Below the pieces are notes generated by a model, which worked only from the letters and a program-made list of their open reading frames with translations, did not search any database and had not been told where the DNA came from. Below are positions 24,493-38,140 of a stretch of DNA of 46,575 nt, piece after piece. Position 1 is the first letter of the stretch. Each line of letters begins with the position of its first letter. The stretch covers positions 1 to 46,575 of the forward strand of contig PMOG01000223.1 in the NCBI GenBank assembly GCA_003161555.1, read 5' to 3'. The stretch comes from Vulcanimicrobiota bacterium. Its GTDB lineage: Bacteria; Vulcanimicrobiota; Vulcanimicrobiia; Vulcanimicrobiales; Vulcanimicrobiaceae. The position numbers were made by a program, and so were the translations under genes.

Positions 24493-25041
24493 CTATTGTA
24501 TCGAGTCGGCGCCGGCTTTGCAGACCGTTGCGTCCTGGTCGCCGGTCCCGCCGCTGCAGCCGAGCCCACCGATGATGATACCGTGGTCGATGAGCGGAAA
24601 GCCGCCCGGTGAGGCCACCAGCGTCGGGTCCAAGGTCGAGACGTACATGTGGCCCGTTTCGAACTGGTTATAGAACGTCCGCGTCTCGCGCCGGAAGCGC
24701 GCGGCCGTGCGCGCCTTGTTCTGCGACACCCCGATCGAACCGAGCTGCGCGCCGTCCATCCGGTAGAAGTAGATCAGATCGCCGTTCGGATCGACGACGG
24801 TGATCGCAAATCGCCAGGCCGGGTGTTGGCGCGCTGCGGACAGCACGACCCCGACGACCTGGGCGGCCCGGTCGACGCCGATCGGCGGCCCGTAGGGGAT
24901 GCCGTAGGGAATCGCGTCGGGCGTGCCTCCGGCAGGCGGCGGTGGGGGCGGCGCGGGGATCGCGGTGGGAACTTGCGCGGCGGCCTCGCCGCCGACCAGC
25001 AAAGCTCCCACGATCAGCATGGCGGTGGTGAACAGACGCAT
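24493..25041 (-). CDS. Exported GlcG/HbpS-like protein
   Basis: From ATG 25041, which has a GGGAG ribosome-binding site, the 182-residue product has a signal peptide ending near EAAAQ and a Pro-rich spacer. The GlcG/HbpS (DUF336) domain follows: ITVVDPNGDLIYFYRMDGA, SIGVSQNKARTAARFRRET, GFPLIDHGIIIGGLGCSGGT, ending DATVCKAGA. This family includes the haem-binding HbpS; the biochemical role of most members is unknown. Export fits a haem or small-ligand sensor in the periplasm. A start at 25053 (MGDTMRL) is possible but has a poorer ribosome-binding site. Confidence 0.85.
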   Translation of the reverse strand: MRLFTTAMLIVGALLVGGEAAAQVPTAIPAPPPPPPAGGTPDAIPYGIPYGPPIGVDRAAQVVGVVLSAARQHPAWRFAITVVDPNGDLIYFYRMDGAQLGSIGVSQNKARTAARFRRETRTFYNQFETGHMYVSTLDPTLVASPGGFPLIDHGIIIGGLGCSGGTGDQDATVCKAGADSIQ

Positions 25042-25219
25042 GGTATCTCCCATCGATCGCAGTTGCGGAGGGCAGTTCCGCGGGCGCTCCGACCGGCCCT
25101 CGACGAGGCGCCGTTTTGGCTCCCGCATCAGCGGGACGACCTCGAGCACCCGCCGCAACCCACGGGGGCGCCGCTACGTCGTGAGGTCAGAGTTGCCTTC
25201 GCCCAAGCGAGGTCCGCCC

Positions 25220-28200
25220 GTGCCTGAAGAGTCCCGTCAGCTCGATCTTTCAACCCTGCTGGGGCGCGTGGGGAACGCTATACGCGAGCGCGTCGGCGCG
25301 CTGCCCAACGTCCTCTCGGCGCGCTCGAAGCGGCTGCGGCCGCGGATCGCCGGCGCGACGGCGACGCCCGGGGTCTGCCCGTACTGCGCGGTCGGCTGCG
25401 GCACGACCGTCTACAGCAAGGGCAACCAGATCCTGGGCATCGAGGGAAACCCCGCTTCGCCCATCAACGGCGGCACGCTGTGTCCCAAAGGCGCCGCGAC
25501 CTTCCAACTGCACGTCAATCCGAACCGCTGGACCACGGTCAAGTACCGAGCGCCGTTTGCCAAAGCGTGGAGCGACGTGCCGTACGCCTGGGCGATGGAA
25601 CGCATCGCCCAGCGCATCAAGGACACTCGCGACCGCACCTTCCGCGAGCACGACGAGCACGGGAACCGCGTCAACCGCACGACCGCGATCGCGTCGCTCG
25701 GCGGCGCCACCCTCGACAATGAAGAAAACTACCTGATCGGCAAACTGTTCCGCAACATCGGCACGCCGTTCATCGAGAACCAGGCCCGCATTTGACATAG
25801 CGCCACGGTGCCCGGTCTGGGCACCCTCTACGGTCTGGGCGGGGCGACCACCCATCTGATGGACCTCCAGCATGCGGATCTGATCGTGATCCAGGGGTCG
25901 AACTTTGCCGAGAACCATCCGGTCGGCTTTCGCTTCGCGCTGATGGCCAAGGAGCGTGGCGCGACGATCGTACACGTCGACCCGCGCTTCACGCGCACGA
26001 GCGCCCTGGCCGACCTCTACATCCCGATCCGGTCCGGTACGGATATCGCCTTCACCGGCGGTCTGATCAACTACGTGCTCTCGAACGACGCCTGGTTCAA
26101 AGAGTACGTCCTGGCCTACACGAGCGCCGCGCTGCTTGTAGATCCGGAGTTTCGCGACACCGAAGAACTCGACGGCATGTTCAGCGGCTACGATCCGGTC
26201 TCGCACACGTACGACCCGAAAACGTGGAGCTACGAGGTGGACGAATCCTCACCGCCGGCCGGCGGGGAGGGCGGCGCCTCGGTCCACGAGGGCGGCAAAC
26301 GGCCGAAGTCCGATCCGACGCTGCAGCATCCGCGCTGCGTGATCAACGTCCTCAAACGTCATTACGCGCGCTACACGCCCGAAGCGGTCGAACGCATCAC
26401 GGGCGCGCCGCAGGAGTCGTTCCTCAAGCTGGCGCGCCTGCTGATCGCCAACAGCGGCCGCGACCGCACGGCCGTCTATGCCTACGCGATGGGCTGGGCG
26501 CAGCACACGGTCGGGGTGCAGAACATCCGCGCGGCCGCAACCCTGCAGGCGCTGCTGGGGAATACGGGGCGCCCGGGCGGCGGGATCATGGCACTCCGCG
26601 GCCACGCTTCGATCCAAGGTTCGACCGACATCGCGACGCTGTACGATTCGTTCCCCGGCTACTTGAAAGTCCCGACCGTCGAGAAGAACGAAACCACGTT
26701 CGCGGCCTGGACGAAGAATCACACGATGCGCTCGGGCCGCTGGGCCGAGTACCCCGCCTTCGCTGTCTCGCTCCTCAAGGCGTGGTATGGCGAACATGCG
26801 CGGGCCGACAACGACTGGAACTTCGCCCGGCTCCCGCTCAATACCGGCGATCACTCCGATCTCCCGATGTTCTTCGCGATGAAGGACGGCGAGGTCGAAG
26901 GCCTCGTGCTGTACGGGCAAAACCCGGCGGTCGGCGGTCAGAATGCCGCTTTGCAGCGCGGCGCGATGGAACGGCTCAAGTGGCTGGTCGTGCGCGATAT
27001 CTTCGAAACCGAGAGCGCGTCGTTTTGGAAGCGCGAAGATTCCAATCCGGAAGACATCGGGACGGAGATCTTTTTCCTCCCCGTTTCCGGCGTCGCCGAG
27101 AAGGCCGGGACGTTCACCAACACGATGCGTCTGTTGCAGTTCCACGAGAAGGCCGTCGAACCGCCGGGCGAGGCACGCAGCGATCTGGGTTTCACCTACG
27201 AACTCGGGAAGCGGCTGCGCGCACTCTACGCGGACTCCACCAATCCGCTGGACCGGCCGCTTCTCGATCTGACCTGGGACTACGAAAGCGACGACCCGCA
27301 CGAACGCGAGCGCGGGGAAGCGGATGTCGAAAAAGTGATGCGCGAGATCAACGGGTTTCGGGTCGAGGGCGGCGAGCACGTGCGCGACTCGCACGACCTG
27401 CGCGACGACGGATCGACCGCCTGCGGAGCTTGGATCTATTGCGGCATGTTCCCGGAGCCGGGACGCAACCTCACCCGCCGCCGCACTGCGGATCCCGCGC
27501 AGCCGGCCGCGCCCGGATGGGGCTGGTCGTGGCCCGACAACGTGCGGACACTCTACAACCGCGCGTCGGCCGATCCGGACGGTAATCCATGGAGCGAACG
27601 CAAGCGGCTGATCTGGTGGGATGACGCCTCGGGAGCCTGGCAGGGTAATGACGTCCCGAATTTTCCGCTGCATACCGCGCCGTCATATCGCGCGCCGGCC
27701 GATGCGCGCGGCGATGCCGCGATCGACGGCGATGCCCCCTTCGTGATGCTCGAGTACGGCCGTTCCGAGATCTTCGGGGTCAACGGCACGGCCGACGGAC
27801 CGATGCCGACCCATTACGAACCGCGCGAGTCGCCGGTCGGAAACGCGCTCTATCCGAACGTGCAGTACAACCCCGTGCTCAAGGAATGGCGCCGCCGCGA
27901 CAACCCCTATCATGCGATCGGCGACCCGAAGTATCCGTACGTCGTCACCACTTACCGCCTGACCGAGCACCACGCGTCCGGTGTGATGAGCCGGCAGCTG
28001 CCGTGGTTGGCCGAGCTTCAGCCGGCCGCGTTCTGCGAGCTCTCACCCGAACTCGCGGTCGAGAAAGAGATCCGCAACGGTGACTGGGTGACGATCGAGA
28101 CGGCGCGCGGCGAGATCGAGGCGCGGGCCTTGGTCACCGGACGGATGCAGCCGTTCCGGCTGGGCGCCGGACGGTTCGTCCATCAGATCGGCATCCCGTA

Positions 28201-28558
28201 CCACTTCGGTTATAAAGGCGAAGTCCGCGGCGACTCCGCCAACGATCTCCCGCCGCTGGTGGCCGACCCGAACGTGACGATCCACGAGGGAAAGGCGTTC
28301 ACCGGCAACATCCGCCGCGGCCGCCGCAGCCCGTTCTCGTCGCGCACGCTGGAACTGGAAGTGGTGCCGCAAACGGAGCAGACGCCCTTCGGCAGCCCCG
28401 AGCGGCCGGGGCCGATGCCGGGACCGGGCGCCGAGGGCGGGATGGTCGAGCACGAGATCGTGCCGCCGGCCGAGGTCATGGAGGCAGCCCGCATCGTGCA
28501 TGCGCGCGCCGAAGCGCGCGCAGCCGAAGAAGAGGAAGGCACCGATGAGCACGCCTGA
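25220..28558 (+). CDS. fdhA: Formate dehydrogenase catalytic subunit with selenocysteine (Sec192)
   Basis: The 1112-residue product oxidises formate to CO2 at a molybdopterin-bound Mo or W centre. The N-terminal [4Fe-4S] site is C53-x2-C56-x3-C60-x27-C88. The in-frame TGA at 25793-25795 falls exactly where Sec or Cys ligates the metal (ENQARI-Sec-HSATVPGL), and the frame continues unbroken to 28558. A MopB domain follows (AGSDYV-type folds, LVTGRMQPFRLGAGRFVHQ near the C-terminus). A GTG start with AGCGAGG upstream is used. No twin-arginine signal is seen in the first 50 residues, unlike FdnG. The next gene, for the Fe-S subunit, overlaps by 14 bp. An extra Gly/Pro-rich insertion lies near residues 340-365, and an acidic tail near 1095-1110. 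Confidence 0.95.
25793..25825 (+). promoter_or_regulatory. UGA-Sec codon and bacterial SECIS hairpin in fdhA
   Basis: After TGA (25793-25795) and 11 nt, a perfect 7-bp stem (GGTGCCC at 25807-25813 with GGGCACC at 25819-25825) closes a GGTCT loop. The loop is the same GGUCU found in the E. coli fdhF SECIS that binds SelB, and the distance is typical. This hairpin explains why the UGA is read as Sec and not as stop. Confidence 0.92.
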
Positions 28559-29327
28559 ACATGGTTTCTTCACCGACGTCACGCTGTGCATCGGGTGCAA
28601 GGCATGCGAGGTGGCCTGCAAGCAATGGAATCAGCTTCCGGCGGACGGCTACGCGTTCTCGGGAAACTCCTACGACAACACCAACGGGCTTTCGGCGACG
28701 ACGTGGCGCCACGTCGCTTTCGTCGAGCAGATGGACCGCGTCGAGCCCTCGGCCTCGCGCTGGATGATGATGTCGGACGTCTGCAAGCACTGCACGAACG
28801 CCGGCTGCCTCGAGGCTTGTCCGACCGGTGCGATCGTGCGCAATGAGTTCGGCGATGTGTACGTGCAGCCCGACGTCTGCAACGGCTGCGGCTACTGCGT
28901 TCCCTCGTGTCCTTTCGGCGTCGTCGCGATCCAACCCGAGGCCGGGGTCGCGCAGAAATGCACGCTCTGTTACGACCGGCAAAAGGACGGGCTCGAGCCC
29001 GCCTGCGCCAAGTCGTGCCCAACCGACTCGATTACCTTCGGTCCGGTCGAGGAGTTGCGCGCGCTCGCCGAGGCGCGCGTGGCGAAGCTCCATGCTGAGG
29101 GACGCGAAGCGCATTTGTACGGCGTGGACGGCCCAGAAACGCGCGACGTCGGGGCGCTCAATGCATTCTTCCTGATCCCGGACCGGCCCGAGGTGTTCAA
29201 CCTGCCGCCCAAACCGGTGCTGCCCTCGAAGTTCCAGCGCGCGGCGTACACGTCCGGTCTGCTCGGCGCGTTGGCGCTCACCGCCGTCGGGCTGGCCGTG
29301 TTCCGGCCTAAACCCTGGAGCGCATAG
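28545..29327 (+). CDS. fdhB: Formate dehydrogenase iron-sulfur subunit
   Basis: The 260-residue ferredoxin-like subunit passes electrons from the Mo/W centre towards the membrane. It has four [4Fe-4S] motifs: C-I-G-C-K-A-C-E-V-A-C at residues 16-26, CKHC-x3-GCLEACP near 79-91, CNGCGYCVPSCPFG near 112-125, and KCTLC with a late CAKSCP pair near 137-160. A C-terminal hydrophobic helix (SGLLGALALTAVGLAVF) can anchor it, as in FdnH/FdoH. Its start overlaps the end of fdhA by 14 bp, with GAGGAAGG as ribosome-binding site. It is followed directly by the NrfD-type subunit, with which its stop shares one base. Confidence 0.93.
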   Translation: MSTPEHGFFTDVTLCIGCKACEVACKQWNQLPADGYAFSGNSYDNTNGLSATTWRHVAFVEQMDRVEPSASRWMMMSDVCKHCTNAGCLEACPTGAIVRNEFGDVYVQPDVCNGCGYCVPSCPFGVVAIQPEAGVAQKCTLCYDRQKDGLEPACAKSCPTDSITFGPVEELRALAEARVAKLHAEGREAHLYGVDGPETRDVGALNAFFLIPDRPEVFNLPPKPVLPSKFQRAAYTSGLLGALALTAVGLAVFRPKPWSA

Positions 29328-30358
29328 TGGACGCAACCGAGAAACACGGCGCGCAGTTCGCGGCCGGCGGAGCGTACGGTCCCGACGCCGTGGCCGACTC
29401 GATGCAGCGCGGCGACGGCGGCTTCGGGCGCGATCAGCAGACGTACTACGATCATCCGGTGCTGCAGAAACCGCACTGGAAATGGGAGGTCGTAACCTAC
29501 TTCTTCATCGGCGGGATGGCAGCGGCGAGTTCGGCTTTGGCGGCCCTCGCCGCGTCGGGCGGCGACCCCGACGACGCGCTGCTGGTGCGCAACGCGCGCT
29601 ACAGCGCGCTTGCGGGGGCGCTCGCGAGCGGCGCGCTGCTGGTGAAGGATCTGGGGCGTCCCGAGCGTTTTCTCAACATGCTGCGGATCGTCAAGCTCAA
29701 ATCGCCGATGTCGGTCGGCGTCTACGCCTTAAGCGTGTTTTCAATGAACGCCGGCGTGCGTGCGCTCGAGCAGCTGCACGCGGACGGTCACGCGCCTTTC
29801 GCCGTTCCCGGCTGGCTCGCGAAGCCGCTGCGGGTGACGACCGGCGCGCCGGCGACGGCGCTGATGGCCTGCTACACCGGCGTGCTCGTCTCGGCAACGG
29901 CGATCCCGGTGTGGTTTACGGGCCGGCGTCACATCCCGGCGATCTTCGTCTGCTCGGCCGTTTCGACCGGGGCCGCGCTTCAGAATGCGCTGCTGGTGCT
30001 GACCGGCGGCTCGGCGCGCACGGCGAAGAAGCTCGCGATCGTGGAATTGATTGCGTCGTGCGCGGAAGCGGTGTTGCTGCTGCACTGGCGGCTTAGCGCA
30101 GGCGAGAGCGCGAAGCCGCTCTTCCGCGGCGCGCGCGGCCGGCGGCTGGAGCGCTTTACGCTGGTCGGAGGCCTAGCGTTGCCCGCGCTGCTGCTGCTTC
30201 CGTCGGTCTTGTCGCGGCGCCCACGGCACGATCGACTTCTGGGTCTGACGGCTGCCGTGGCGGCGCTGTTCGGCGGCTACGTGCTCCGCGAGAGCATCGT
30301 CCACGCCGGACGCGATTCTGCGGACGACGCCCGCGCGTATTTGCGTCACCCGGAATAG
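29327..30358 (+). CDS. NrfD/PsrC-type membrane subunit of formate dehydrogenase
   Basis: The 343-residue protein has a long N-terminal soluble stretch and about eight transmembrane helices, starting HWKWEVVTYFFIGGMAAAS. That segment and LGRPERFLNMLRIVKLKSPMSVG are characteristic of NrfD/PsrC quinone-reactive subunits, which carry no haem. It would transfer electrons between quinone and the Fe-S subunit, replacing the di-haem cytochrome b (FdnI) of the E. coli enzyme. The GTG start at 29327 overlaps the preceding TAG by one base. The gene converges on cydB, only 8 bp away. Confidence 0.9.
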   Translation: MDATEKHGAQFAAGGAYGPDAVADSMQRGDGGFGRDQQTYYDHPVLQKPHWKWEVVTYFFIGGMAAASSALAALAASGGDPDDALLVRNARYSALAGALASGALLVKDLGRPERFLNMLRIVKLKSPMSVGVYALSVFSMNAGVRALEQLHADGHAPFAVPGWLAKPLRVTTGAPATALMACYTGVLVSATAIPVWFTGRRHIPAIFVCSAVSTGAALQNALLVLTGGSARTAKKLAIVELIASCAEAVLLLHWRLSAGESAKPLFRGARGRRLERFTLVGGLALPALLLLPSVLSRRPRHDRLLGLTAAVAALFGGYVLRESIVHAGRDSADDARAYLRHPE

Positions 30359-30366
30359 GGCCCGGC

Positions 30367-31383
30367 TCAGGGCAGGTCGGCCGGCTCGGATTTGGCGCGG
30401 CCCGCATTGAGCCGCAGTCCGACGAACGATCGATACGCGACGACGATGAGCAAGCCGCCGATCGCGATCGGCAGGATCGTCTGGAGCGCCGCCGACGGAG
30501 CGGGCGCGTTGAAGATCGAGAGCCCCGTTTCGGGCGCCGGATAGCCCGGCAGCAAATACGGATAGAGCGTGGCCGCCGACGACGCGAGCAGCCCGGCTAG
30601 GAAGAGCGTCGAGGCCTCGAACACTCGTCGCGGGCGTCGTTGGAGCGCGAAAAGTGCTACCCCCGCGAGCCCGGCAGCCGAGCAGAGCGGCGCGAGCGCG
30701 ATCGCCGGCATGGCGCGCAGGTTCGGCAGCGGTGAGTGAACCGCAAACGTCGCGATCGTCACGATGGCGGTCAGGACGAGCACCAGCGGCCAGAGGATGC
30801 GCAGCGCGGCCTGGGCGCGCGCCGCCGGCGGTCCGTCGACGCGTGCCGCTACCCACGCCGCGCCATGCTGGGTCAACGCCGCGACGGCGAGCAGGCCGAC
30901 CCCGACCGCATACGGATTGAGTAAGAACGCGAACGTGCCCTGGAAGTAATGCGCGGTATCGAGCGGGACGCCGCGCACGATATTGCCCAGCGCTACCCCG
31001 AGGACGAGGATCAACAGCACGCTCGCCGCTGCAAACGTCACATCGAAGAATCCGCGCCACAGGTCGCTCGGGAACTCTCCGCGCAATTCGAAGGCGATGC
31101 CGCGGAACATCAGCAGCCAGAGCAGCACCATGAACGGCAGATAGAAACCGCTGAACGACGACGCGTAGACCTGTGGAAAGAGCGCGAACAGCGTTCCGCC
31201 CGCGGCGATGAGCCAGACCTCGTTCCCGTTCCAGTACGGACCGATGCTGTCCAGTACGGCGGCGCGCTCGGCGTCGTCACGGGCGACGAACAGATGGACC
31301 GCCCCCGCCCCCAGATCGTAGCCGTCGAGCAGCACGTAGACGCCAAGCATCGCGACCAGCAGCAGGAACGCTACGACGATCAT
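30367..31383 (-). CDS. cydB: Cytochrome bd-type quinol oxidase subunit II
   Basis: The 338-residue protein has about nine transmembrane helices and the CydB signatures: VLLDGYDLGAGAVHLFVARD near the N-terminus (the D-G-x-D-L-G-x-G motif), then IGPYWNGNEVWLIAAGGTLFALFP and FRGIAFELRGEF. CydB stabilises the haem-bearing CydA in the terminal oxidase that reduces O2 with quinol. It overlaps the end of cydA by 4 bp (ATGA), indicating translational coupling. No small CydX-like frame is evident after it. Confidence 0.94.
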   Translation of the reverse strand: MIVVAFLLLVAMLGVYVLLDGYDLGAGAVHLFVARDDAERAAVLDSIGPYWNGNEVWLIAAGGTLFALFPQVYASSFSGFYLPFMVLLWLLMFRGIAFELRGEFPSDLWRGFFDVTFAAASVLLILVLGVALGNIVRGVPLDTAHYFQGTFAFLLNPYAVGVGLLAVAALTQHGAAWVAARVDGPPAARAQAALRILWPLVLVLTAIVTIATFAVHSPLPNLRAMPAIALAPLCSAAGLAGVALFALQRRPRRVFEASTLFLAGLLASSAATLYPYLLPGYPAPETGLSIFNAPAPSAALQTILPIAIGGLLIVVAYRSFVGLRLNAGRAKSEPADLP

Positions 31384-32732
31384 GGTGCGGCCACCGCCGG
31401 CACTTCCGGTGCCCGCTCATGCTCGGGGCCGGCCGCGATCTCGCGCAGCACGATCAGGACGAACAGCACGCCGAGCAGGAAGTACATCCCGGCGAAACCC
31501 AGGGTCGTGAAGATCGTCTCGGCGGCGGCGACGTTCGGGGACGCCGACTCAGAAGTGCGAATCAGCCCGTAGACGATCCACGGTTGCCGCCCGACTTCGG
31601 TCGTCACCCAACCGGCTTCGTTTGCGATGTACGGAAACGGCATCGCCAGCATCAGCAGCCACAGCAGCCAGCGGCTGCGTTCGAGCCGGTTCAGCAGCAG
31701 CAACAGCGTCGCCAGGCCGCTCAACGCCACGAAGATCGTCCCGAGCCCCACCATGATGTGGTACGCATAGTAGGTCAGCGCGACCGGCGGACGGTCCCGA
31801 ACCGGATACGCCGCGATCCCCTTGACGCCGGCTTGAAAATTTCCGTATGCCAAAAAACTGAGCACGCCCGGAACGACGATCGGATCGATCAGCGTCTCAC
31901 GCTGCTCGTCCGGCATGCCGATGATTGCCAACGGCGCGTCCCGCTCGGAGGTGAAGAGACCTTCCGCTGCGGCGAGCTTGGCCGGCTGGTACTTGGTGAT
32001 GGCGGAGCCGTTGAGATCGCCGGTCGGAAAGATCGTCAGAATCGAAAACAGGCACGCGACCGGTACGCCTGCGCGCGCGAACAGAACGCCGTACGCGGCT
32101 TGACGTCGCGCCAGCACGTAGTACGCGCCGACACCGGCGACCAGGAAGCTTCCGGTCAGCACAGCACCGGCGATGGCGTGGACGAACTGTCCCCAGGCGT
32201 AGTCGGAAAGCAGCACTGCCGCGAGGCTCGTGAGCTTCACTTGACCGCCGGGCCCCATCGTGTAACCCACCGGATGCTGCATCCACGCATTCACCGTGAT
32301 CACGAGGAAGCCCGACAGCCAGGAACCGGCCCAAATCAGCACCGCCGACGCCACGTACAGCCGCGGTGAGACGAAGCGGCGCCCGTAGAGAAAGACGCCC
32401 AGAAAGATCGACTCCAGGAAGAACGCGAAGATGCCTTCCATCGCCAGCGGCTGGCCGATGACGGCGCCGGTTCGGGCCGAGAAGGCCGCCCAATTGGTTC
32501 CGAACTGGAACTCCATCGGGATGCCGGTCACGACCCCGATCGCGAAGTTGACCGCGAAGATCCGCCCCCAGAACCGTGCGGCCCGATCGTAGAACGGATT
32601 GCCGGTCCGCGCCGCAACGAACGTGAACCATGCAATGAACGGCGCCAGCCCCATCGTTCCGATCGGGAACAAGTAATGGAACAGGATCGTGAACGCGAAT
32701 TGGGTGCGATCGGCCAGCACCGCGTTTTCCAT
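31380..32732 (-). CDS. cydA: Cytochrome bd-type quinol oxidase subunit I
   Basis: The 450-residue haem-bearing subunit has H19 (FAFTILFHYLFPIG) and H185 (YAWGQFVHAIAGAV), matching the E. coli ligands H19 and H186. GWVTTEVGRQPWIVYG near the C-terminal half is a CydA hallmark, and M and E residues lie in its vicinity. Compared with E. coli CydA (about 522 residues) it is shorter, consistent with a short Q-loop as in the cyanide-insensitive CIO branch. It reduces O2 to water with quinol. It forms an operon with cydB. Its start is divergent from the DUF6582-like gene, with about 116 bp between. Confidence 0.95.
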   Translation of the reverse strand: MENAVLADRTQFAFTILFHYLFPIGTMGLAPFIAWFTFVAARTGNPFYDRAARFWGRIFAVNFAIGVVTGIPMEFQFGTNWAAFSARTGAVIGQPLAMEGIFAFFLESIFLGVFLYGRRFVSPRLYVASAVLIWAGSWLSGFLVITVNAWMQHPVGYTMGPGGQVKLTSLAAVLLSDYAWGQFVHAIAGAVLTGSFLVAGVGAYYVLARRQAAYGVLFARAGVPVACLFSILTIFPTGDLNGSAITKYQPAKLAAAEGLFTSERDAPLAIIGMPDEQRETLIDPIVVPGVLSFLAYGNFQAGVKGIAAYPVRDRPPVALTYYAYHIMVGLGTIFVALSGLATLLLLLNRLERSRWLLWLLMLAMPFPYIANEAGWVTTEVGRQPWIVYGLIRTSESASPNVAAAETIFTTLGFAGMYFLLGVLFVLIVLREIAAGPEHERAPEVPAVAAP

Positions 32733-32848
32733 CGCCTCCGGGTCCTGCGCGGCCCCGGACGCGGCGACCTTTCGGACCTTCGGCCAGGCAGGCTCCCCGA
32801 AGGCCCTCCGCCGTGTTTCCGCGGCCGCAAGGTGGGTATTGCGTAGCC

Positions 32849-33355
32849 ATGAGAGCTACGTGGAAGCCCCATGAGAAGCACGGCGAGCTGACGGGCCGCA
32901 GCGAGCTGCCCGACAGCGTTTTCGCCTACCCGCGCGAACGCAAAGAGCCGATGACCGACGCGTCGCACGTCCGCAATGCGATTGCCCGCTTCGATCAGGT
33001 CGACGGCGTCTCGGATGCCGAACGCAGCCTGGCGTTTGCAAACATCAAGAAGGCCGCCGAACACTACGGCGTCGATCTCTCCGAGACCAGTTGGCAGGAT
33101 CTCGGCCGCCGCCCGAGCACCGGGCGGACGAGCGCCGACCGCAAGCGTTCGGCCCGCAAGGCCGTCACGACACGGAAGAAGACGGGCACGCGCAAGAAGG
33201 CGACGACGCGGACGGCGACGCGCAAAAAGGCGGGGACGCGCAAGAAGACCGGGCGCAAGACCGCGGGGCGCAAGAAGACGACGACGCGCAAGAAGGCGAC
33301 AGCGAAAAAGAAGCCGACTGCGCGCAAGACGACGACCCGCAAGAAGGGCCGCTAG
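32849..33355 (+). CDS. DUF6582-like domain fused to a histone-H1-like basic tail
   Basis: The 168-residue product has two parts. Residues 1-90 carry W-K-P-H-E-K-H-G-E-L-T, then SELPDSVFAYPRERKEPMTD, then ASHVRNAIARFDQVDGVSDA and a helix up to SWQDLGRRP; this matches the DUF6582 pattern. Residues 95-168 are almost only Lys, Arg, Thr, Ala and Gly with repeated (T/G)-RKK-x units, as in bacterial histone-H1-like proteins that bind DNA non-specifically. The fusion suggests a nucleoid-associated protein whose head domain recruits or regulates it. Its N-terminal motif resembles stress-associated small proteins, which is an inference. It is divergent from cydA. Confidence 0.7.
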   Translation: MRATWKPHEKHGELTGRSELPDSVFAYPRERKEPMTDASHVRNAIARFDQVDGVSDAERSLAFANIKKAAEHYGVDLSETSWQDLGRRPSTGRTSADRKRSARKAVTTRKKTGTRKKATTRTATRKKAGTRKKTGRKTAGRKKTTTRKKATAKKKPTARKTTTRKKGR

Positions 33356-33436: not shown

Positions 33437-36142
33437 TTGGGTAACGAAACATGTCGTGGCAACGTGACAACGGGCCTGCGGCACGCTTGGCGGTTTTCCG
33501 AAGGGCGCGTCGGCCCTCTCCTGATTGCAGCCCTCTGCGCGGTCGCCGCGGTCGGAATCGTTGAGCCGGGCGTTCCACTCCCGCGGCTCGCGCTGATCGT
33601 TCCGATTTCGCATTTCGTGGCGGTGCTCGGCGATGGCGCTACCGCGATCGTCCTGTTTGCGATCTGGCGCTCGTCCTCGACGCGGCGATCGACGTTCGTG
33701 CTCGCGCTGTCGTTCGCGGCGAGCGGGGTTCTGGCACTTCTCGCAACGCTCGTACTCCCGCTCCTGCCCGACGATCCGCCGGTGCTCGACCTCCCGGTGC
33801 AGACCGGGATTTGGCTCTACTTCTTTTGGCACGTGGCCGCCGCTGTGGGGGCGCTCGCCTACGTCTTCATGCGTCGCGCCGGGGAGTCCAGACCGCCTTC
33901 GCCCCGCTTCGTGCTGCTCGCCCTCGCCACGGCGATCGCGGCCGTCGGCGTCAGTGCGCTGGTTGCCTTTGCGTACGGCAGTCACCTGACGGTTCTCGGC
34001 GACCAGCATTCCTTTACCGGCTTGGTGCCCCCGGGCGTCGGTCCGTTTACGGCCGTGCTGCTGGCCGTAGCGGCACTGTTCGCGTTTGCGATTCGCCAAC
34101 CAAATGCGATTGATCGGGCGCTCGCGCTCTCGCTCGTCGCCCTTGCGCTCGACGTCACGCTGCTCTTCGTGGGCGGACTTCCGTATACGAGTTCGTTCTA
34201 CGCGGGCCGATTGCTGCTCGTGCTCGGTGCGACGTTCGTCTTCGTGTCGGCGGTGCGAAGCCTGGTCGGCTCCCGCATTCGGCTGGGCAACGTGGAATCG
34301 ACGCTGCACCACGTCGAGAGCGAGTCGGCCGGCCGTGCCGGCCGCATCCGCGCGCTGTGGCAGATTTCGTCCGATTCGGCAGAGCCCGAAAACGGGCTCT
34401 TCAGCGGCACGCTTCGGACAGCAGCAACTGCGCTGCGGCCGGGGAAATCCATGCACGGCCACTTGAGCCACATCGTCGGCGGCTCGGTCGTCATCGACGC
34501 GACCTCACGGCTTCCCTCGGAATCCGGCAGCCCCTACGATCTGATCTATCCAGGCGCCACATTTCCGATCGAGCGCATGATGGCGAACTTCCTGCGCGAT
34601 TCCAAGAGCGTGTTAGCGTGGAACGACTTGAGCTTCCTACGCGGTCGCGGAATGCTTGCCGAGGAACTCGGCTTGGGCTGCTTTATCGGCGCAATGCGCA
34701 CGATCACCGGGCGGTTGTACTTCCTGACGTTCATGTGCACCGGCACGATGGCCGACGAACCGTTCGCTGAAGACGACGTCGCCTACGTCGACGTCGTCGC
34801 ATCGTTCTTCGCCAGCCGCTTCGCGCAGCAGGCGCAGTTCGAACAAATCAAGTTCCAAGTCGAGCACGATGCCCTGACGGGCCTCCAAAACCGTCTGCAG
34901 TTTCGCCAAGCGACGCGGGAAGCGATTCGTGGCGGCAAAGAGTTCACGCTCGCGATTCTCAATCTCGACGGCTTTCGGCACGTCAACGAACGTGAAGGCG
35001 TGGAAATGGGCGACGAGGTTTTGGTCGAGGTGGCTGCCGATCTGGAATCGGTCGCGCCCGATAACATCGTTGCCCGCATGGGTGGGGATGAGTTCGCAAT
35101 CGTCCTCCGTGACCGGGGTACCGTCGCCGCCGCCGCCACCGGCCTCAAACAATACGCCGACATCTTCCGCGGCGCGTCAGGGACCAGCGTGCGCAGAGGG
35201 GCGCACCGGCTCGGCGTCGGGGCATCGATTGGTGCGGCACGGTTCCCCGCCGACGGCACTTCGAACGAGGAGCTGATCCGCCGCGCGAGGGTTGCGCTCG
35301 AAGTTGCGAAGACGCGCGGCGGCTCGACTACGATGATCTTCGATCGTCCCATGGAACGCATCCTCGAAAGTGCGCATCTGCGCATCGTCGAGTTGACCAG
35401 CGCGATTGCCAACGACGAGTTTGCGCTGCTCTACCAGCCGACGTTCGTGCTCGCGACGCGAAAGGTCGTCGGCGCCGAAGCGTTGATTCGTTGGAACCAC
35501 CCGCAGCGCGGGCTGGTTCCGCCCGTTGAATTCGTCACGTTTGCGGAGCGCCAGGGTTTGATCGGACCGCTGTCGCGCTGGGTGTTTCGCCGCCTGGTGC
35601 GCGATCTTACGTCCGGCGTCCTTCTGCCGCCCGGCTTTCGAGTCTATTTCAATCTTGCTGCCGAGATGCTCGACGACGTGCCGTTCATCGCGGAGCTGCT
35701 CGAGGAGCTGCGGGCATGGCCCGGCTTGATCGATCACGTCGGAATCGAAGTGACCGAAACGACCGCCATGCAGAACGTCGAGCGCTCGATGCACACGATA
35801 GCGCTGCTTCGCGGCTGGGGTTTCGCCGTCGCGATCGACGACTTCGGCACCGGATACTCCTCGTTGTCCTATCTCAAGCGCCTGACTGTCGATCTGATCA
35901 AGATCGATCGCTCGTTCATCATCGGCTTGCCGGACGACGAACAAGACGGCGCACTCACCGAGATGCTGTTACGAATCACCGATCGTTTCGGTTTTGCGAC
36001 CGTGGCCGAAGGCATCGAGACCGAAGCTCAAGCCGCCTGGCTTCTGGCGCACGGCTGTCGGCTCGGCCAAGGCTATCTGGTCGCCAAACCGGGTCCGTTC
36101 GCGGACCTCGTGCAGCACCTCGACGCGCCGGTCCTCGCGTAG
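33437..36142 (+). CDS. Membrane-anchored GGDEF-EAL protein (c-di-GMP turnover)
   Basis: The 901-residue product has seven to eight N-terminal hydrophobic helices (about residues 24-275, MASE-type sensor), a GAF-like stretch near 300-465, a GGDEF domain with intact G549-G-D-E-F553 (VARMGGDEFAIVL), and an EAL domain with E681-A-L (GAEALIRWNHPQ), IDDFGTGYSSLSYLK and EGIETEAQ motifs. Both active-site signatures are intact, so either synthesis or hydrolysis of cyclic di-GMP is possible. The start is weak: TTG at 33437 is used, with GTG at 33464 as an alternative. Its stop lies 37 bp before kaiC, so the three genes look like one operon. Confidence 0.9.
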   Translation: MGNETCRGNVTTGLRHAWRFSEGRVGPLLIAALCAVAAVGIVEPGVPLPRLALIVPISHFVAVLGDGATAIVLFAIWRSSSTRRSTFVLALSFAASGVLALLATLVLPLLPDDPPVLDLPVQTGIWLYFFWHVAAAVGALAYVFMRRAGESRPPSPRFVLLALATAIAAVGVSALVAFAYGSHLTVLGDQHSFTGLVPPGVGPFTAVLLAVAALFAFAIRQPNAIDRALALSLVALALDVTLLFVGGLPYTSSFYAGRLLLVLGATFVFVSAVRSLVGSRIRLGNVESTLHHVESESAGRAGRIRALWQISSDSAEPENGLFSGTLRTAATALRPGKSMHGHLSHIVGGSVVIDATSRLPSESGSPYDLIYPGATFPIERMMANFLRDSKSVLAWNDLSFLRGRGMLAEELGLGCFIGAMRTITGRLYFLTFMCTGTMADEPFAEDDVAYVDVVASFFASRFAQQAQFEQIKFQVEHDALTGLQNRLQFRQATREAIRGGKEFTLAILNLDGFRHVNEREGVEMGDEVLVEVAADLESVAPDNIVARMGGDEFAIVLRDRGTVAAAATGLKQYADIFRGASGTSVRRGAHRLGVGASIGAARFPADGTSNEELIRRARVALEVAKTRGGSTTMIFDRPMERILESAHLRIVELTSAIANDEFALLYQPTFVLATRKVVGAEALIRWNHPQRGLVPPVEFVTFAERQGLIGPLSRWVFRRLVRDLTSGVLLPPGFRVYFNLAAEMLDDVPFIAELLEELRAWPGLIDHVGIEVTETTAMQNVERSMHTIALLRGWGFAVAIDDFGTGYSSLSYLKRLTVDLIKIDRSFIIGLPDDEQDGALTEMLLRITDRFGFATVAEGIETEAQAAWLLAHGCRLGQGYLVAKPGPFADLVQHLDAPVLA

Positions 36143-36179
36143 CGCTCGTGCACGTCCGCCGGTCGAAAGGAAAGACGCG

Positions 36180-37859
36180 ATGCTGACTTCTCCAAGCGGG
36201 ATAAAGGGACTCGATGCCGTCTTGCGAGGCGGCTTCCCGGCCGGGCGAACGACGATCGTCAGCGGCGATCCGGGCAGCGGCAAGACGGTGCTGGCGATGC
36301 AGTATCTCGTAAACGGCGCCACCACGTTTGAGGAGCCGAGCCTGATGATCTCGTTCGAGGAGTCTCCGGCCGCGCTGCGGACGAATTTCGCGAGCATGCC
36401 GCAAGCGCTGGCTGGGGAACCCGGCGACCGTTTGCAGATCGTCGACGGGCGAATGCCGGAAGATGCGTTGGAAGCCGGTTCGTTCGACCTGGGCGGTCTA
36501 ATCGCAATCGCTTCCGCGATCGTCGCCAAGCACGGCATAAAACGCCTAGCGATCGATGGCATCGACGCGCTTTTCGCGCTTACCGAGCGGCCGTCGAACC
36601 GGCGCCGCGAGATCCTGCGCGTGCTCAATTGGCTGGCCGACATCAAGCTGACGACCTTGCTGACGATCAAACGAACCAACGACGAAAAGAACCTCCCGAG
36701 CTATTTCGGCTTGGCGGAGTATGCGGCGGACGGCGTCGTCGAGCTGCGCAAGACGATGTTCGGCGAACTCGCACGCCGGACGCTGTCCGTCGTCAAGCTG
36801 CGCGGGGCCGCGTACGACGGCGGGGCACACTCCTATACGATTTCCGACCAAGGCATTCGCGTGGGGCATACCCCCGCGCGAACGCGCACGCTGCCTCAGG
36901 ATTTGGACACGCGACTCTCCACCGGCGTCGAACGCCTCGACACGATGTTGCTTGGGGGTTACCGAGCCGGCACGACGACCCTCATCTCCGGCTTGCCGGG
37001 CACGTCGAAAACGACGCTGGCCGCAGCATTCTTGCAGGCGGGCTTCCGCGCCGGCGAGCCCTGCCTCTTCGTCGGCTTCGACGAACCGGCGGAGCAAATG
37101 CTGGTCGATGTCCATTCGGTGGGGCTCGATCTGGACGGCGCGGTTCGCTCGGGCCTGCTGCACGTGGAATCCTTCGCCGCCGGAGTCATGATCGCGGACG
37201 AGCACTTCCTGGCCATCGAATCGCTGATCGAACAGCACCGCCCCAAGCGCGTGGTCATCGATCCGATCTCGGCGCTCCAGAAGGCGGGCGGTCAAGAAAT
37301 CGCCGACACGACGATGGAAAACCTGATCGTGCTGTTCAAATCGCTCGGGATCACCGCGGTCGTCACCGCCGCTTCGGACTCGCAATTGGGAGAGATGGAA
37401 AATACGCCGACCCGGGTGTCGACGGTCGCCGATGCGTGGATTCATCTGAGCTTCGCGAATATGGGCGGCGAGCGAAATCGCACGCTCACGATCGTAAAGG
37501 CGCGCGGCACCGGCCATTCCAATCAGATGCGCGAGGTGCTGCTATCGGCCGACGGTATCGATCTGGCGGATGTCTTCTCGGCCGGCGGTAAGGTGCTGGT
37601 CGGCACAGCGCGCGCGGAGCGTAAGCAGAAAGAATCCGTCGACAAGGCCGCCCAAGAGGAGAGTGCGACACGTGAACTCGAGCGGCTGGACCGCGAAGCG
37701 CAGAGTCTGAGCCGGCAGTTGGAAGAAGCGCAGCGAGGACTCGACCAATTGGCCGACTATCGTGAGCAGGTGCTCAAGCGCACGGCGGTGAGCGGCCGGG
37801 CTCACGATCGCGAGACGGATCTGATTCACTCGCTGCGCCACGGGGATGACCCAGCATGA
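36180..37859 (+). CDS. kaiC: KaiC-family clock ATPase (two RecA-like domains)
   Basis: The 559-residue protein has the KaiC double-domain layout. Walker A is GDPGSGKT at residues 29-36 (CI) and GLPGTSKT at 271-278 (CII). CI keeps the catalytic Glu pair (SFEESP, E60-E61), while CII has D301-E302 instead of Glu-Glu. The CII phosphosites are conserved: S414-T415 in TRVSTVADAW aligns with S431-T432 of cyanobacterial KaiC (HISTITDT), so autophosphorylation is plausible. A predicted coiled-coil extension of about 60 residues follows the CII domain (residues 480-540), making it longer than the usual 519. GAAAGGAAAG before ATG 36180 is a good ribosome-binding site. It overlaps kaiB by ATGA. Confidence 0.93.
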   Translation: MLTSPSGIKGLDAVLRGGFPAGRTTIVSGDPGSGKTVLAMQYLVNGATTFEEPSLMISFEESPAALRTNFASMPQALAGEPGDRLQIVDGRMPEDALEAGSFDLGGLIAIASAIVAKHGIKRLAIDGIDALFALTERPSNRRREILRVLNWLADIKLTTLLTIKRTNDEKNLPSYFGLAEYAADGVVELRKTMFGELARRTLSVVKLRGAAYDGGAHSYTISDQGIRVGHTPARTRTLPQDLDTRLSTGVERLDTMLLGGYRAGTTTLISGLPGTSKTTLAAAFLQAGFRAGEPCLFVGFDEPAEQMLVDVHSVGLDLDGAVRSGLLHVESFAAGVMIADEHFLAIESLIEQHRPKRVVIDPISALQKAGGQEIADTTMENLIVLFKSLGITAVVTAASDSQLGEMENTPTRVSTVADAWIHLSFANMGGERNRTLTIVKARGTGHSNQMREVLLSADGIDLADVFSAGGKVLVGTARAERKQKESVDKAAQEESATRELERLDREAQSLSRQLEEAQRGLDQLADYREQVLKRTAVSGRAHDRETDLIHSLRHGDDPA

Positions 37860-38140
37860 CGCCGGCCCCGAGTGCGACGCTGCTGCTGCTGTTCGTCGTG
37901 AAGGCCACGCCGCGCTCGATGCAGGCGATCGACAACCTCCGGCGCGCGCTAGCCGAGCTGGCAGATCGGACCTTCGAGCTCGAAATCGTGAACGTGTTCG
38001 ACGACCCGGAACGCGCGCTCGCCGAACGGATTCTGGTCACGCCGACGCTGCTGGCCCCCGCCTCTGCGCAGCGCATCGTCGGCGATCTAGGCGAGGTAAG
38101 CCAATTGCGCTACTTTCTGCAGATGCTGCCGACGGTCTGA
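37856..38140 (+). CDS. kaiB: KaiB-family thioredoxin-fold clock protein
   Basis: The 94-residue product matches the KaiB pattern: LLLLFVVKATPRSMQAIDNL at the N-terminus, FELEIVNVFDDPERALAERI, VTPTLLAP, and a final RIVGDLGEVSQLRYFLQMLP. In cyanobacteria KaiB binds the CI ring of KaiC and resets its phosphorylation. The start overlaps the stop of kaiC by 4 bp (ATGA), as expected for partners. No KaiA is present in the window; outside cyanobacteria KaiBC pairs often act without KaiA as timers or stress regulators. Confidence 0.88.
   Translation: MTPAPSATLLLLFVVKATPRSMQAIDNLRRALAELADRTFELEIVNVFDDPERALAERILVTPTLLAPASAQRIVGDLGEVSQLRYFLQMLPTV

Follow-up and report, generated by a model that had tools for sequence, protein, structure and literature searches.

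The window (the whole 46,575-nucleotide stretch of DNA that we analyzed) belongs to a Candidatus Eremiobacterota MAG (G000), a soil bacterium whose genome is 73.5% complete. On the + strand it carries a gene for a GGDEF-EAL protein followed by kaiC and kaiB (Table 1). The kaiC and kaiB genes overlap by 4 bp (ATGA), and the first codon of the enzyme gene is unsure (TTG at 33437 or GTG at 33464). The layout given in an earlier, sequence-only reading of this DNA, with a 37-bp gap before kaiC, the ATGA overlap, and the positions of the three genes, was confirmed. The three genes look like a single operon and would be cotranscribed. A scan for promoters and terminators found no promoter-like sites in the cluster region, and terminator-like sites were at their chance number (5 seen versus 4.7 expected); the scan was uninformative. 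Just 5' of the enzyme gene is an ORF with a DUF6582 domain and a lysine-rich, histone-like repetitive tail (32813-33355, + strand). The window also contains two - strand ORFs that, by eye only, resemble cytochrome bd oxidase subunits (30367-32732) and genes for a molybdopterin/Fe4S4/NrfD oxidoreductase (24923-30358).

Table 1. Features of the enzyme-kaiC-kaiB cluster, in positions of the window.
Feature	Position	Strand	Basis
MASE4 - GAF-like - GGDEF (degenerate) - EAL gene	33437-36142	+	ORF call and Pfam
Intergenic gap, 37 bp, with GAAAGGA ribosome-binding-like site	36143-36179	+	Sequence
kaiC, 559 aa, two KaiC domains	36180-37859	+	ORF call and Pfam
kaiB, 94 aa, divergent	37856-38140	+	ORF call and Pfam

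Pfam places a MASE4 domain at amino acids 53-270 of the enzyme, a GGDEF domain at 476-629, and an EAL domain at 652-885. The region between MASE4 and GGDEF is GAF-like, with a weak match (GAF_2, E = 0.042 in the sister genome G002), and a profile search of this region against the PDB gave no match. (In another genome of the family, G028, about 5-6 tandem matches to the GAF-like region lie within one 1650-aa open frame at C88:74137-76680.) The GGDEF and EAL motifs had been described as intact, which holds for EAL but not for GGDEF. The EAL residue set (EAL, FN, ExTE, DDFG, K, EGIE, and QG(Y/F)) is complete in all three orthologs; some more distant homologs lack parts of it. The GGDEF pentapeptide is kept in the window enzyme, but in an alignment against the solved GGDEF-EAL proteins 4rnh and 5m3c, the metal-binding Asp of DxD is an Asn (N509), FK is replaced by FR, and there is no I-site RxxD (the position reads APDN). 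(The I-site is common but not obligatory in active diguanylate cyclases.) Also, the orthologs in G002 and G028 have SGDEF instead of GGDEF. An active diguanylate cyclase is expected to combine GG(D/E)EF with the metal-binding Asp of DxD, and the window enzyme has only the first of these. Because of the Asn at the metal site, we dropped an intact bifunctional cyclase/phosphodiesterase from consideration. Judging from the known chemistry of EAL and GGDEF domains, the protein is most likely a membrane c-di-GMP phosphodiesterase, because the EAL residues are complete in three orthologs while the GGDEF domain decays. One study (PMC9061725) provides a precedent for a GGDEF domain that acts as the on-switch of an attached phosphodiesterase. 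An AF2 model of the GGDEF-EAL protein was discarded (pLDDT 36.8).

The KaiC of the window matches PF06745 in two stretches, which gives the two tandem ATPase domains with P-loops expected of the KaiC family. It scores 431 bits against NF006799 (cut-off 408) and lies below the cut-off of TIGR02655, the cyanobacterial type. The residues that had been singled out from the sequence are all present: the Walker A motifs (29-36 and 271-278), the CI Glu pair (E60-E61), and the phosphosite pair S414-T415, which aligns with S431-T432 of S. elongatus at a constant offset of 17. However, the phosphosite pair is not conserved in the KaiC of the sister, which has S-A (T415 is replaced by Ala). In addition, E318, the CII catalytic Glu of S. 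elongatus, corresponds to D301 in the window and to an Asp in the sister as well. Given the Asp in both proteins and the S-A pair in the sister, phosphorylation at two sites may not work as a timer here.

By predicted structure and gene order, this KaiC is like that of Rhodobacter sphaeroides, whose system lacks kaiA. Its C-terminal extension is 89 aa long, residues 476-553 are predicted to form one helix, and the protein is closest in fold to 8fwi, the R. sphaeroides KaiC dodecamer. (The structure model used seven alignment rows from the window and the genomes, without the KaiC rows from plasmid records.) The helix prediction and the fold match together point to the C-terminal coiled-coil extension of the KaiC_RS type. 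The two systems also share kaiC followed by kaiB and no kaiA. They differ in that the third gene of R. sphaeroides is a downstream histidine kinase, its phosphosites are S413-S414, and its CII Glu is kept; the KaiC proteins are about 30% identical. KaiC_RS works without KaiA, driven by the ATP/ADP ratio, and behaves as an hourglass (PMC10076222). A KaiABC circadian clock would include kaiA, and a search with PF07688 did not find it in G000 (73.5% complete), G002, G028, or G125; the S. elongatus control was detected. The KaiB of the window scores 46.5 bits against PF07689 (cut-off 27), as a family member should, and is below the NCBIfam equivalog cut-offs; its proline-rich loop is short by two residues.

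The sister genome (G002, public record PMOS01000012) carries the same three genes; their order, the 37-bp gap, and the 4-bp overlap are unchanged, while KaiC is 59% identical and the enzyme 49%. In a comparison of the window against a 20-kb stretch of G002, the cassette alone matched, and the additional matches were to other GGDEF-EAL genes. The gene upstream of the cassette appears to be divergent in G002. Because order and spacing are kept in the sister with unrelated flanks, we regard the trio as a conserved cassette. (G002 has a second GGDEF-EAL gene, of PAS-PAS type, 27 bp 3' of kaiB at L033 5802-8153 on the - strand, so that its kaiBC is flanked on both sides.) G028, which is another genus of the same family (93% complete, 7% contaminated), has its closest orthologs of the enzyme (53%, L153 6651-9335) and of KaiB (64%, L048 2072-2347) on separate contigs, and KaiC was not detected there by protein or profile search. 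As the enzyme and KaiB are unlinked in G028 and no KaiC was found, the association of the enzyme with kaiBC is not universal. The sequence-only reading was to be given up if relatives did not conserve the enzyme gene beside kaiBC: G002 does conserve it, but G028 partly speaks the other way. A scan of the named genomes with KaiC (two peptide patterns) returned only the sister and one distant match in Anaerolineae.

The same reading had proposed a survey of kaiBC neighborhoods, and there the linkage recurs without being universal. KaiB is rare in the phylum Eremiobacterota (6 of 149 genomes). Five Eremiobacterota have kaiC and kaiB together, and the adjacent gene encodes a GGDEF-EAL protein in three (G000, G002, and G125) and kinase-like proteins in two (G129 and G138). 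KaiB was found in 41 of 400 sampled genomes of Chloroflexota; we read 54 loci, of which 49 combine kaiB with kaiC, and in 16 of the 49 the genes run kaiB-kaiC-GGDEF-EAL on one strand. (The scan for PAS domains covered two of the 16.) These Chloroflexota kaiB-kaiC-PAS-GGDEF-EAL runs are like the window in having the three functions in one same-strand run, with gaps of 6-270 bp, but the enzyme gene comes last, the KaiC has a short tail and belongs to another clade, and the GGDEF domain is canonical with RxxD in the two examples that were aligned, whereas that of the window is degenerate. The locus of G125, from the same phylum and family but another genus, is kaiC-kaiB-PAS-GGDEF-EAL. There too the enzyme adjoins kaiBC, but it is downstream, of a soluble PAS type, and on an unrelated enzyme branch, and the KaiC is on another branch and has a short tail.

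In a tree of KaiC proteins, those of the window and G002 pair up on a long stem and group tentatively, in a basal position, with a KaiC_RS-type, mostly kinase-linked clade (97 SH-aLRT), apart from the enzyme-linked clade of Chloroflexota. A tree in which all enzyme-linked KaiC proteins are held together, G125 included, was rejected (p = 1.3e-10), and the same constraint without G125 gave a weaker result (AU p = 0.021); these p values are indicative only, because we defined the groups with the tree already in view. We dropped common descent of the linkage here and in Chloroflexota, as the latter test is weak but against it. The tree suggests that the linkage between GGDEF-EAL genes and kaiBC, which occurs in three different gene orders, had at least two origins and probably three.

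The kind of linkage is already known. According to De Luca et al. (2011), most kaiBC outside the cyanobacteria have GGDEF/EAL or histidine-kinase genes next to them (PMC3164672), and as in the window, some of their clusters combine kaiC and kaiB with a GGDEF/EAL gene. In those clusters, the GGDEF/EAL gene is immediately downstream of kaiC or kaiB, whereas ours is upstream, has a MASE4 membrane sensor, and is from Eremiobacterota. What is new here is the phylum, the upstream position, the membrane sensor, and the decayed cyclase domain. Among the papers that we searched, none joins Eremiobacterota with KaiC.

A functional association of the enzyme with kaiBC is supported by gene order, because the order and spacing of the trio are kept in G002 and because the linkage recurs in other lineages and in other gene orders. 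As to its nature, we propose, with a little less than even confidence, that a kaiA-less KaiBC switch sets the activity of the membrane c-di-GMP phosphodiesterase. KaiC and KaiB would form an ATPase/phosphorylation switch like that of R. sphaeroides, which probably senses either the ATP/ADP state or how much time has passed (an hourglass rather than a self-sustained clock). The MASE4-GAF-like-GGDEF-EAL protein would stand where other KaiBC operons have a histidine kinase and would mainly degrade c-di-GMP, with the degenerate GGDEF domain as, at most, a regulatory (GTP- or partner-binding) module, and the state of KaiC/KaiB would set its phosphodiesterase activity. We infer the timing, the contact between KaiC/KaiB and the enzyme (physical or regulatory), and its direction. 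(G000 has 9 GGDEF and 3 EAL matches and, at 73.5% completeness, no PilZ match; G002 has 5 PilZ matches.)

A second, rather unlikely possibility is that KaiC and KaiB do no timing and instead act as a switch for the ATP state, or as a scaffold, with no ordered phosphorylation of two sites, still with the phosphodiesterase as partner. The S-A pair in the sister, the Asp in place of E318 in both proteins, and the very long stem of the KaiC pair would all fit with this. However, the window KaiC keeps S414-T415, both P-loops, and the CI Glu pair, and an Asp at the position of E318 may still act as a base.

Third, the direction could be reversed: the membrane protein would be the input, resetting KaiC via local c-di-GMP or by contact, and KaiBC would act elsewhere. 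In favor of this, the protein has modules of a sensor type (MASE4 and the GAF-like region), and its gene is the first of the putative operon. We consider this distinctly unlikely because kinases, which are regarded as outputs, hold this place in other KaiBC operons and because c-di-GMP has no direct effect in vitro on the Kai proteins of S. elongatus. In that organism, period and phase shift in vivo when c-di-GMP is changed, but in reconstitution assays c-di-GMP did not act on the Kai proteins (PMC13001216). This null result bears on c-di-GMP as an input and not on the enzyme as an output.

Fourth, the genes could be mere neighbors, or coexpressed, with no signaling link. Relatives of the enzyme do occur away from kai genes, in G028, G008, and G005. 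But G000 has only 3 EAL genes in 2.93 Mb (G002 has 15 and G125 has 8), and the probability of one lying directly beside the kai cluster is roughly 0.002 in G000 and 0.002-0.008 per genome, with gene number estimated from genome length. With this low probability and a cassette that is kept amid unrelated flanks, we dropped a chance neighbor as an explanation; as other lineages have the linkage too, in other gene orders, the absence of any signaling link seems quite improbable. Finally, we regard it as very improbable that the enzyme has KaiB, and not KaiC, as its true partner. The same three sampled Eremiobacterota genomes, including G028 with no detected KaiC, do have both the divergent KaiB and the orthogroup of this enzyme, but these are only three related genomes, one with 7% contamination, the KaiC of G028 may lie in its missing part, and the KaiB and enzyme genes are unlinked there.

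To our knowledge, the targets of KaiBC outside the cyanobacteria are mostly unknown. With a likely phosphodiesterase in the place of the kinase, this small cassette offers a directly testable output of KaiBC, from timer to c-di-GMP. That such enzymes have joined kaiBC repeatedly and separately is an argument for timers or energy switches as drivers of c-di-GMP in several phyla. It is possible, if doubtful, that a kaiA-less KaiBC timer here has the membrane-anchored c-di-GMP phosphodiesterase as its direct output, without a two-component step, and that this coupling was assembled independently several times and is a general output route of KaiBC. Also, decay of the GGDEF domain and loss of the phosphosite in the sister genomes tell which activities selection keeps.
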